Below, in pieces: positions 41,958 through 45,031 of a stretch of 64,000 nt of DNA. Numbering within the stretch: position 1 is the stretch's first letter; each line of letters opens with the position of its first letter. The translations under genes were made by a program, and so were the position numbers. The notes beneath the pieces are model-generated. The model was given only the letters and a program-made list of their open reading frames with translations, was not told the DNA's origin and did no database searches. This DNA is from Caldicellulosiruptor obsidiansis OB47 (GTDB taxonomy: Bacteria; Bacillota; Thermoanaerobacteria; Caldicellulosiruptorales; Caldicellulosiruptoraceae), in the NCBI RefSeq assembly GCF_000145215.1, contig NC_014392.1, forward strand, positions 675,501-739,500, in the 5' to 3' direction.

Positions 41958-41985
41958 TTGATAAAAGAAAAAATTGTGCTAAAAT
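41958..41985 (+). promoter_or_regulatory. Promoter of the Mg2+ operon
   Basis: TTGATA (41958-41963), 16 bases, then TAAAAT (41980-41985) preceded by TGC, an extended -10. Transcription would start near 41992, just before the M-box aptamer. Confidence 0.7.
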
Positions 41986-42000
41986 AGAAGTTGAAAAATG

Positions 42001-42165
42001 AATATTGTAAGATATCTCGGTAGGCGAGGCTCCTACAGGGATATAGGCTGCTGCCGCGAAAGATTGGAGACAATCTGAGCTGGTGAACAGGTTTTGCCGA
42101 AACCAAGGCATAACCTAATGCAGCTTTTTATGCCGTGTAGTGCCAAAGCTTGTACGAGGTAGCTT
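42001..42165 (+). promoter_or_regulatory. M-box (ykoK) magnesium riboswitch aptamer
   Basis: The conserved M-box signature is seen in order: GGTAGGCGAGGCTCCTACA, GCTGCTGCC, a GGAGACAA hairpin, GGTGAACAGG, GTGCCAAAGCTTGTACGAGG. The closing P1 helix pairs TATCTCG (42013-42019) with CGAGGTA (42155-42161). In the Mg2+-bound fold P1 forms; without Mg2+ the segment ACGAGGT (42154-42160) can instead pair with ACCTCGT (42191-42197) and break the terminator stem. It would therefore switch off the downstream Mg2+ genes when Mg2+ is plentiful, as in Bacillus mgtE. Confidence 0.93.
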
Positions 42166-42182: not shown

Positions 42183-42229
42183 GTGCTTTCACCTCGTTTT
42201 TAAGCTTTGGGTGAAAGCACTTTTTGTTT
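42183..42229 (+). terminator. Terminator of M-box expression platform
   Basis: GTGCTTTCACC (42183-42193) pairs with GGTGAAAGCAC (42210-42220), followed by TTTTTGTTTTT. The left arm region is shared with the antiterminator partner ACCTCGT, so the two folds are mutually exclusive. Confidence 0.92.
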
Positions 42230-42294
42230 TTAATAGCAATGTATAAAATTTTGCTATTGCGAAAATCTTCTTAAAGAAGGAGTTGAGAGAAAAG

Positions 42295-42423
42295 ATGGAT
42301 TCTGGTCCTGTGAGTAAGCAGGATTGGACAGCAAAAAGCAATTGTACTTTGGAATGTGGAGGGGTGCTAATTTTTCTCTGTTTGGAAGAAAATAAAGGGA
42401 TAAATACACCTTTTTGCAAATAG
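42295..42423 (+). CDS. Possible 42-codon leader peptide upstream of mgtE-like gene
   Basis: A short frame from ATG 42295 to TAG 42423 with AGAAGGAG about 12 bases upstream. It lies after the M-box terminator and spans the left arm of the translational switch. The peptide has no recognisable domain; it begins MDSGPVSKQDW and holds four Cys. Translation is not proven: the spacing is long and there is no homologue I can name. It could be a leader peptide, or the reading frame may be accidental. Confidence 0.4.
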   Translation: MDSGPVSKQDWTAKSNCTLECGGVLIFLCLEENKGINTPFCK

Positions 42424-42496
42424 ATTTTAAAGGCTTTTAGCACCCCTCCACCAAATGACAACAAAAATGAAAATTCAAAAAAGGAGGGGTGTTAAA
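42356..42496 (+). promoter_or_regulatory. Mutually exclusive hairpins around the mgtE-like ribosome site
   Basis: GGAGGGGTGCTAA (42358-42370) and its exact complement TTAGCACCCCTCC (42437-42449) form a stem that extends to 15 bp (42356-42370 with 42437-42451). The ribosome site GGAGGGGTGTTAA (42483-42495) is a near copy of the left arm with one C-to-T change, so the same anti-SD strand can pair with it (12 Watson-Crick pairs plus one G-U). One fold leaves the ribosome site free, the other hides it. Confidence 0.75.
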
Positions 42497-43750
42497 ATGC
42501 CAAATGTCACAAGCTTTTATCTTAGCAGAGTAATCGGCAACAAGGTCTTTTCAGAAGAAAAAAAGGTTGTAGGAAGACTTTTAGACTTGGTTGTTGATGC
42601 AAGTTATATAAGACCCAAAGTAATTGCTGCGAAGGTAAAAAGTGGCGGTCAAACTCAAATTGTGGACTTTTCATTTTTCATAATCTACAAGGAGAAAGGT
42701 CAGTATGTAATTGAAACCAGGAACTTAAAACCAATTAATGTTAAAAAAGAGGACACAATCATGCTTGTTCGCCATATTCTTGATAAGCAGATTGTGGATA
42801 TGAATGGCAGAAAAGTTGTAAGGGTAAATGATATAAGACTTGCAGTACTTTCTACAGGTGTTTATGTAATAGCTGTAGATATCGGCCTTGAAGGGCTTTT
42901 GAGAAGGCTTGGTCTTGCAAAACCTCTGAAAAAGGTGTTAAAACCGCTTGGTAAAAACATTCCTTCGCGTCTTATTTTATGGGATGATGTACAGCCGCTT
43001 GCTTCTCCACGACTTGATCTAAAACTTTCAACCACATATTCAAAGCTTTCTACCCTGCATCCGTCAGATTTGGCAGATATTATTGAAGAACTTGACAAAA
43101 AGACACAGGCCTATATATTTTCCACACTGGATGAAGAGAAAGCTGCAGATGTTTTGGAAGAGCTTGATGTTGAGGCACAGCGAAATGTTTTAGAAAGTCT
43201 TCCTGTTGAAAAGGCTGCAGATGTGCTTGAGAAAATGCCGGCTGATGAGGTTGCAGATATTCTGGATGAGATAAAGGAAGAAAGAGCAGAAGAACTTCTG
43301 AACGAGATGGAAAAAGAGGCATCAGAAGAAGTCAAAGAGCTTATGGAATATCCAGAAAATACAGTTGGTGCAATAATGACCACAGATTTTATTGCTTTCA
43401 AAACACATTTTACTGTTGAGCAGACAATAGAGGAGCTAAGACGATTAAAGCCTGAACCAGATGAAATTTATTATCTGTATGTTGTGGACAATGAAGAAAG
43501 GCTTTGCGGGGTTGTGTCTTTGCGTGATTTGGTAATCTCTGAGCCTCAAACACCGCTTTATGAGATAATGAACAGAGACGTAGTTTGTGTTAAAGACACT
43601 GACAATGTTAATTCTCTTGTTGAGATTATTTCAAAATATAGCCTTCTTGCTGTGCCTGTTATTGATGAGAATAAGAAGCTCATTGGAGTTGTAATTATAA
43701 ACGATATTGTGTACGAACTTTTGAAGATGAAAAGAAAACTGTTGCTGTAG
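42497..43750 (+). CDS. MgtE-like cytosolic Mg2+ sensor (PRC barrels, MgtE_N, CBS pair; no channel)
   Basis: A 417-aa soluble protein. In order: PRC-barrel-like segments (about 1-75 and 85-160), an MgtE N-domain of helical repeats (about 180-295, including HPSDLADIIEELD and EKAADVLEKMPADEVADIL), and two CBS domains (about 300-415, from VGAIMTTDFIAF). The five-helix MgtE pore is missing. In MgtE the N and CBS domains bind Mg2+ and close the pore; here that module is encoded alone beside an NRAMP-related transporter, so it may gate or sense for it (inference). ATG 42497 follows GGAGGGGTG. It is under the M-box. Confidence 0.88.
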   Translation: MPNVTSFYLSRVIGNKVFSEEKKVVGRLLDLVVDASYIRPKVIAAKVKSGGQTQIVDFSFFIIYKEKGQYVIETRNLKPINVKKEDTIMLVRHILDKQIVDMNGRKVVRVNDIRLAVLSTGVYVIAVDIGLEGLLRRLGLAKPLKKVLKPLGKNIPSRLILWDDVQPLASPRLDLKLSTTYSKLSTLHPSDLADIIEELDKKTQAYIFSTLDEEKAADVLEELDVEAQRNVLESLPVEKAADVLEKMPADEVADILDEIKEERAEELLNEMEKEASEEVKELMEYPENTVGAIMTTDFIAFKTHFTVEQTIEELRRLKPEPDEIYYLYVVDNEERLCGVVSLRDLVISEPQTPLYEIMNRDVVCVKDTDNVNSLVEIISKYSLLAVPVIDENKKLIGVVIINDIVYELLKMKRKLLL

Positions 43751-43783: not shown

Positions 43784-45031
43784 ATGGTACAGACGACAAA
43801 AAGCTCCAGACTGAAAAATATTCTTTTAATTTTAAGTGTAATTGGGCCAGGGCTTGTGACTGCAACAGCTGACAATGATGCATCAGGTATTGCAACATAT
43901 GCAATGGTAGGTTCCATGTTTGGTTACAAGATGTTATGGGGACTTTTTCTGATAACAATAAGCTTGGCAATAATTCAAGAGATGGCAGCAAGAATGGGTG
44001 TTGTAACAGGCAAGGGACTTTCTGACCTTATCAGAGAAAATTTTGGGGTGAAAATGACATTTTTTGCAATGGTGACCCTTTTGATTGCCAACTTTACAAC
44101 AACAGTTGGCGAGTTTGCAGGAATTGCAGCAAGCCTTGAAATATTTGGTATATCTAAATATATCTCAGTTCCTATTACTGCTATTTTTGTATGGTATATT
44201 ATCAATAGGGGTTCGTATCGAAAAACAGAGAGGTTCTTTTTAGGGCTTATGGTAATCTATGTTAGCTATATAATTTCAGGATTTTTGGCAAAACCGGATT
44301 GGAAAGAGGTATTCAAAAATACATTTTTACCCTCGTTTAGTTTTGAGCCCAATTTTGTATTGATTTTTATTGCTATGATAGGAACAACAATAACACCGTG
44401 GATGCAGTTTTATTTGCAGTCATCTGTTGTGGATAAAGGGGTTGATGTTAAAAACCTTAAGTACCAGCGATGGGATGTATTTTTGGGAGCCTTCTGGACA
44501 GACTTTATTGCGTTTTTCATAGTTGTTGCAACAGCAGCAACACTTTACAAACATGGGGTTAGTATTGAAACGGCAGAAGATGCAGCAAAAGCATTGGAGC
44601 CGTTTGCAGGGAAATATGCATCAGCTCTTTTTGCAATAGGACTTTTTGGTGCGTCGCTTTTAGGTGCATTTATTTTGCCGCTTTCAACAGCATATGCAAT
44701 CACTGAAGCATTTGGCTTTGAAAATGGACTTGACAAGAAATTCAAAGAAGCCCCTGCGTTTTATGGGATAATACTTTTTTTTATTATAATAGGTGCTGGA
44801 ATAATTTTATTTCCCAATATACCATTGATTAAACTTATGATAATAGCTCAGGAGATAAATGGAATTTTACTTCCAATAATTCTTATTTACATGCTCAGGC
44901 TTACAAATGACAAAGAAATTATGGGCGAGTATGTGAACTCAAAAGTATTTAATATAATTGCATGGTTAACAGTTGTGTTCATAATAATTTTGACGCTAAT
45001 TTTACTTGTACAACCGTTTTTGAATATATAG
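43784..45031 (+). CDS. NRAMP-related transporter, probable Mg2+ importer
   Basis: A 415-aa membrane protein with about 11 helices of the NRAMP fold. The metal-site motif of helix 1, normally DPGN, reads DASG (Asp32 kept, Asn lost) within TATADNDASGIAT, and the helix 6 motif, normally MPHN, reads TPWM in TTITPWMQF, so the soft Met ligand for Mn/Fe is absent. NRAMP-related proteins under M-box control have been shown to carry Mg2+ in other Clostridia. With the upstream M-box and MgtE-like sensor, Mg2+ is the most likely substrate. GAGGTGATG precedes the ATG. Confidence 0.88.
   Translation: MVQTTKSSRLKNILLILSVIGPGLVTATADNDASGIATYAMVGSMFGYKMLWGLFLITISLAIIQEMAARMGVVTGKGLSDLIRENFGVKMTFFAMVTLLIANFTTTVGEFAGIAASLEIFGISKYISVPITAIFVWYIINRGSYRKTERFFLGLMVIYVSYIISGFLAKPDWKEVFKNTFLPSFSFEPNFVLIFIAMIGTTITPWMQFYLQSSVVDKGVDVKNLKYQRWDVFLGAFWTDFIAFFIVVATAATLYKHGVSIETAEDAAKALEPFAGKYASALFAIGLFGASLLGAFILPLSTAYAITEAFGFENGLDKKFKEAPAFYGIILFFIIIGAGIILFPNIPLIKLMIIAQEINGILLPIILIYMLRLTNDKEIMGEYVNSKVFNIIAWLTVVFIIILTLILLVQPFLNI

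Follow-up and report, generated by a model that had tools for sequence, protein, structure and literature searches.

The M-box leader of an NrmT-type operon

The window analysed here is the whole 64,000 nt stretch of the Caldicellulosiruptor obsidiansis OB47 genome (NC_014392.1, positions 675,501–739,500), and all features are given in window positions on its forward strand. An M-box Mg2+ riboswitch aptamer that matches the RF00380 model (cmscan 127.5 bits, E 3e-28; gathering score 44) lies at 42009–42165, so the M-box named in a preliminary description of this DNA is real. Upstream of it, at 41958–41985, is a promoter-like site, TTGATA-16-TAAAAT, which is a consensus match only (10/12, with TG before the second hexamer). 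Downstream, an intrinsic terminator at 42183–42230 (stem 42183–42193/42210–42220, followed by a T tract) and an antiterminator in which 42145–42160 pairs with 42191–42208 were read from the sequence. The terminator was missed by the automated scan because its loop is longer than 8 nt, and the terminator region is near-identical within the genus.

The first regulated gene (42497–43750) encodes a protein with PRC-barrel, MgtE_N and CBS domains, in which a Pfam search did not find the MgtE membrane domain. The second (43784–45031) encodes an Nramp-family transporter (Pfam PF01566, E 5e-108). An M-box, an MgtE N-domain gene and an adjoining Nramp-related transporter make up the NrmT-type arrangement, and Mg2+ transport is predicted only. 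Operons of this type have been described mainly in Clostridia, according to the available part of PMC4072509, and they share these three components with the window. However, that part of the paper presents regulation by the M-box only, with no leader ORF or second stage. No credible known RNA family was found in Rfam between the M-box terminator and the MgtE_N/CBS gene.

Three strands and an ORF in the leader

Three short segments lie in or beyond a leader ORF that opens downstream of the terminator. Segment A (42356–42370, GTGGAGGGGTGCTAA), which is inside the ORF, and segment B (42437–42451, TTAGCACCCCTCCAC) form a perfect 15 bp inverted repeat. Segment C (42483–42495, GGAGGGGTGTTAA) is the ribosome site of the MgtE_N/CBS gene, directly 5′ of the ATG at 42497, and copies a 13-mer of A with a single C-to-T change. 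B, the anti-Shine-Dalgarno strand common to both folds, pairs with C over 13 bp, one of which is G-U. The A:B and B:C helices are mutually exclusive, B:C hides the downstream ribosome site, and the leader ORF overlaps the helices, as expected of an mgtQ-like attenuator. The hairpins, each folded alone, have energies of −38.8 kcal/mol (z −5.7) for A:B and −21.4 kcal/mol (z −5.8) for B:C; as duplexes at 37°C the two are near balance, at −25.2 and −22.8 kcal/mol, respectively. In the whole-leader minimum-energy fold, A pairs, when B:C is formed, with the sequence UACACCUUUUU ahead of the leader stop (both within 42356–42423), a possible third competitor.

The preliminary description had reported that 42437–42449 is exactly complementary to 42358–42370, extending to 15 bp, and that it also pairs with 42483–42495, a one-base variant of the same 13-mer. 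Both pairings were recovered. It had also held that the near-duplicate was hard to explain by chance. This stands for the 15 bp inverted repeat, the like of which appeared in 0/2000 dinucleotide shuffles of the leader; the 13 nt near-duplicate (one mismatch) alone is less rare (148/2000 shuffles). The C-to-T change is peculiar to this genome; 11 sister genomes carry C there, so A and C are identical 13-mers in most sisters.

Conservation and covariation of the three segments in relatives had been named as the check on this proposal. A, B and C are all present in each of the 12 Caldicellulosiruptor genomes that hold the leader, in a second genus of the family (G012) and in further families of the phylum. 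A compensatory change in L006 gives GGAGGAG in A and CTCCTCC in B; C is still GGAGGGG there and pairs through G-U. In G012, A (GGAGAGGTGCTT) and B (AAGCACCTCTCT) have again changed in a compensatory way, and C is GGAGGGGTGC. More distant leaders that combine an M-box with an MgtE_N gene (L096, L097, L098, L099/L013 and L028) differ in sequence and keep the same three-strand relation; the automated search for A, B and C misplaced segments in L096, L098, L099 and L028, where they were set by hand. Over 11 distinct rows, 93% of cells are paired in A:B, with two-sided changes at 9/13 pairs, a level that 0/500 shuffles matched. B:C is likewise paired in 93% of cells, with two-sided changes at 6/13 pairs; 38/500 shuffles reached six pairs and none of the 500 reached the B:C covariation score. 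As the segments were trimmed manually to the core of the ribosome site, the alignment leans towards structure, a bias partly answered by a control in which slid A:B partners were only 41–58% paired.

In the automated search, all three segments were recovered mainly in leaders of the NrmT type and in those that precede a P-type ATPase gene in genus g5. The signal elsewhere was weak or absent, so we do not claim A/B/C for every M-box leader ORF. For the Kapabacteria and most Bacteroidales loci, no relatives useful for leader comparison were found. The genus g5 leaders (L060–L070) have MDGGGSS... ORFs with an A strand inside, and there a 12–15 bp helix hides the ribosome site of the P-type ATPase gene even though B and C are approximately 100 nt apart. 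For the window, conservation and three-way covariation strongly support the earlier suggestion of two alternative folds, one exposing and one hiding the ribosome site, on transcripts that have passed the M-box terminator, and we regard a three-strand translational switch as very likely. Its designation as an RNA switch fits as far as the folds are concerned, but named no signal and missed the likely driver, the conserved leader ORF.

This ORF (MDSGPVSKQDWTAKSNCTLECGGVLIFLCLEENKGINTPFCK, MDSGPVSKQDW..., 42 codons, 42295–42423) opens between the terminator and A, at the ATG at 42295, and ends with a TAG stop 13 nt before B. It is preceded by a Shine-Dalgarno site, AAGGAG (42277–42282), that is kept in 12/12 genomes of the genus and in G012, with a rather long spacing to the ATG of 12 nt in the Caldicellulosiruptor genomes. 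As with MgtL, it is a short, Shine-Dalgarno-preceded ORF in the leader of a Mg2+ transporter-type gene. The peptide start, MDSGPVSKQDWTAKSNCTLECGG, is conserved as MDSGPV in 13/13 genomes of the family. Past MDSGPV the peptide drifts, and in L012 it is frameshifted; among different species, A is read through in all three frames. The stop lies at or after the A core and before B in 18/18 leaders. When the sequence separating the peptide start from A was shuffled, the same outcome had a probability of 0.33–0.70 per lineage; the product over 12 representatives, approximately 5e-5, exaggerates the effect, as relatives are not independent. From these patterns, A appears to be held as RNA and the leader start as peptide, with the ORF kept open through A, which fits what a ribosome-controlled switch requires. 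As the conserved, Shine-Dalgarno-preceded ORF runs through A and ends before B, its translation most likely chooses the fold, and we consider it likely that the leader ORF drives the switch.

An 11 bp hairpin with the loop GAGUAA (42301–42328, −14.2 kcal/mol, z −3.5) lies within the ORF and possibly slows the ribosome. The stem persists throughout the genus, including L012 with its frameshifted peptide, and part of the nucleotide conservation of the leader could thus be RNA-driven. The hairpin was rejected as the conserved core, as it is lost in G012 whereas the peptide start remains.

Leader ORFs behind other M-boxes

Of 399 genomes from the phylum, 135 contain RF00380, and M-box leaders from 90 genera, placed by covariance-model coordinates, were analysed. 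The exact motif MDSGPV is not widespread: in the 399 genomes it returned the family of the window and three GC-rich matches without an M-box, and a residue pattern was therefore needed to define the class. A Shine-Dalgarno-preceded ORF that starts M[DE]x(0-3)P follows the M-box in 37/90 genera, while shuffled leaders gave a mean of 0.45 and a maximum of 2 (40 rounds). The pattern is found in 50/112 leader ORFs, compared with 2/134 long ORFs from these loci (Fisher 2e-18), and in 0/8 ORFs behind SAM riboswitches, a small control. It was set after looking at the data, so the exact percentage is loose, but the effect is too large to have arisen in this way. Examples include MDPDPGSS, MDADPDD, MDTDPGR, METDPGR, MDGDPYP, MDDPDAD, MEDPYPG, MDAGPSG, MDSGPYNKR and MEESPYRR. 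Many M-box leaders lack such an ORF, for example those of genus g21, which are 70–80 nt long.

In 60 distinct ORFs, Asp, Glu and Pro number on average 2.65 in residues 2–6 and 0.38 in residues 12–16; one of the former count is guaranteed, as the choice of ORFs required residue 2 to be acidic. The codons vary, with both for Asp and all four for Pro in use, which indicates selection on the peptide. With a single acidic residue, the MDSGP start in the window is weaker than the EPDP of MgtL or the MDPDP of relatives, although the class overall is strongly enriched. The genes sampled 3′ of the leader ORFs encode MgtE, CorA, P-type cation ATPases and MgtE_N/Nramp proteins.

Proposed mechanism and alternatives

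The architecture is strongly supported by what was computed, namely the segments, their conservation and covariation, the constraints on the ORF, its recurrence behind M-boxes and the closure of C when A is masked (below). By analogy with MgtL and mgtQ, we infer that the leader is translated in cells, that Mg2+ is the signal, that ribosomes drop off early, and the ON/OFF polarity. We propose, with a probability of roughly 0.7, an MgtL/mgtQ-like leader peptide through which Mg2+ would be sensed by early ribosome abortion, driving a translational attenuator behind the M-box. In the first stage, the M-box riboswitch would stop transcription at high Mg2+. In the second, ribosomes would start the leader ORF at 42295. 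At low Mg2+, the acidic/proline start (Asp2...Pro5; codons 2–5, Asp-Ser-Gly-Pro, 42298–42309), which belongs to the M-[DE]-x-x-P type that recurs behind M-boxes, would destabilise the ribosome, leading to drop-off near codon 5, before A. The free A would then take B, with A:B forming first as the RNA emerges, leaving C open and the operon ON. With sufficient Mg2+, the ribosome would cross A and block its pairing, so that B:C would hide C and the operon would be OFF. Both stages would have the same sign, and the operon would thus be on only when the aptamer and the ribosome both report low Mg2+.

In the folding model, C was closed when A was masked (accessibility 0.00–0.07; 0.20–0.26 in L096). 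At 70°C, masking A took the opening of C in the leader of the window from 0.76 to 0.01. At 37°C, most free leaders are predicted to be closed at equilibrium even with A unmasked, so the ON state must be kinetic or dependent on growth temperature. The anatomy points to translation as the output, rather than Rho-dependent termination.

The main competitor is a leader-ORF attenuator of the erm type that answers a signal other than Mg2+, such as an antibiotic, the supply of EF-P or aminoacyl-tRNA, or translation stress. The A/B/C architecture alone would fit any ribosome-driven signal, and the proline of the motif could serve as a readout of EF-P or tRNA-Pro. However, ORFs of this class follow Mg2+ riboswitches and precede genes of Mg2+ transporter types, acidic residues are enriched besides Pro, and there is no run of one regulatory codon, making this reading unlikely, if the least so among the alternatives. 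A little less likely still is an RNA switch that works independently of the ribosome, in which Mg2+, temperature or another ligand would set the balance of A:B and B:C, and the ORF would be incidental or protect the RNA. Neither helix needs a ribosome, the duplex energies at 37°C are nearly balanced, and the free RNA of the window opens between 37 and 70°C. That reading is at odds with the lack of an Rfam family between the terminator and the gene, and with the most conserved element being an ORF start rather than a structured aptamer. Equally, it does not account for an ORF that stays open through A in three frames, or for the enrichment of M[DE]..P across the phylum.

The ORF might instead act mainly on transcription, through access of Rho or RNase to an untranslated leader as in enterobacterial mgtA and corA, with A:B:C secondary. 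MgtL and corL do act through Rho, and in the M-box-less loci L239 and L241 (below) an apparent intrinsic terminator comes after such an ORF. In the window, however, no T tract follows A:B or B:C, and C is the ribosome site itself, covarying with B; we therefore consider this improbable. Chance, in the form of a purine-rich ribosome site and an unrelated near-copy, could account for the 13 nt near-duplicate, which shuffling alone produced 148 times in 2000, but the 15 bp inverted repeat (0/2000), the conservation and the covariation contradict it, and it can be given almost no weight.

The Mg2+-responsive attenuator that we favour has several known counterparts. In Salmonella, the mgtQ ORF has Asp2 and Glu5, and early ribosome drop-off at low Mg2+ frees the mgtB ribosome site (PMC8092293). 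The leader of the window resembles mgtQ-mgtB in that a short ORF, which follows a strong Shine-Dalgarno site and is acidic near its start (at a single residue in the window), overlaps helices hiding or exposing the ribosome site of a Mg2+ transporter-type gene, and drop-off at low Mg2+, known for mgtQ and proposed here, would favour expression in both. They differ in that mgtQ has eight residues, lies between two genes and uses four segments, with a ribosome on segment 1 needed for the ON state. The window has three segments in a 5′ leader, and masking A closes the site in the folding model; no ribosome on A should correspond to ON. The host is Gram-positive and only distantly related, and the leader begins with an M-box. 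The MgtL peptide (EPDP) of E. coli and Salmonella mgtA also causes early drop-off at low Mg2+, acting on Rho-dependent termination (PMC11282234, PMC11552253). It shares with the window an acidic second residue, a proline within the first five residues, a downstream Mg2+ transporter-type gene and, as proposed for the window, a link between efficient leader translation and repression, but has the denser EPDP and works through Rho, whereas the output in the window appears to be hiding of the ribosome site. Homology with MgtL cannot be judged from five residues, and convergence would be as likely.

Another small conserved ORF behind an M-box is Mbox-uORF2 (rv1805A), upstream of M. tuberculosis pe20. 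The authors of that study regard this Mbox as the first translational one and describe the peptide as mycobacterial and of unclear role (PMC12810186). There, the M-box itself, with Rho, controls translation of the ORF; MgtL is not mentioned in the text of that paper. The erm leaders are translational attenuators with four segments in which the ribosome stalls with antibiotic. As in the window, translation of the leader peptide decides which helix forms and whether the ribosome site further along is hidden or exposed, but no antibiotic signal is indicated here.

In the open-access literature, with subscription papers mostly outside the search, no account of MgtL-like ORFs downstream of M-boxes in Bacillota turned up. 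In the papers found, E. coli and Salmonella are the organisms for which Mg2+ sensing through a ribosome-destabilising peptide has been documented. What would be new here is a leader that works like MgtL and mgtQ in a distant phylum and in series with an M-box, a likeness in working rather than of shown descent. If the proposal is true, such sensing is widespread in a phylum far from the enterobacteria and acts in series with a riboswitch normally described as sufficient alone. M-box reporters cut off upstream of the leader ORF would then have missed some of the control. With dozens of natural leaders that differ in their peptides, how an acidic/proline nascent N-terminus senses Mg2+ would also become directly testable.

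For the phylum as a whole, we lean, with less confidence than for the window, towards a peptide Mg2+ sensor that is like MgtL, independent, and commonly follows M-boxes, so that many transporter genes would be gated twice, by aptamer and transcription and then by the ribosome. Its outputs would include hiding of the ribosome site, intrinsic termination and overlap with the gene start, and it would also occur free of an M-box, in L239, L241 and possibly L027. L239 (reverse complement, approximately position 533) and L241 (reverse complement, approximately position 406) are MgtE_N genes with no detectable M-box. Their leader ORFs, MDGSPSSKRGD... and MDGSPCHSP..., precede an apparent intrinsic terminator that lies ahead of the gene, as though classical transcription attenuation were driven there by the peptide module without a riboswitch. 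In L027 (approximately 2398–2442), from Bacteroidales, ATG GAC GAC GAC CCG (MDDDPAN...) precedes an MgtE_N gene, and a strand is able to pair with the ribosome site of that gene; no MDDDPAN-like ORF or pairing strand was found in the other Bacteroidales loci scanned.

The acidic-start ORFs that follow the M-boxes of L124, L139, L145, L149 and L189 extend, in a different frame, over the beginning of the transporter gene, and the module may have a distinct output there. A second M-box was found in a genome of the same genus as the window (L073, G003:C1:699201-699368). The leader ORF behind it, MDGGGSSKSYKG..., matches those of genus g5, which belongs to another family, suggesting horizontal transfer of an M-box/P-type ATPase unit.
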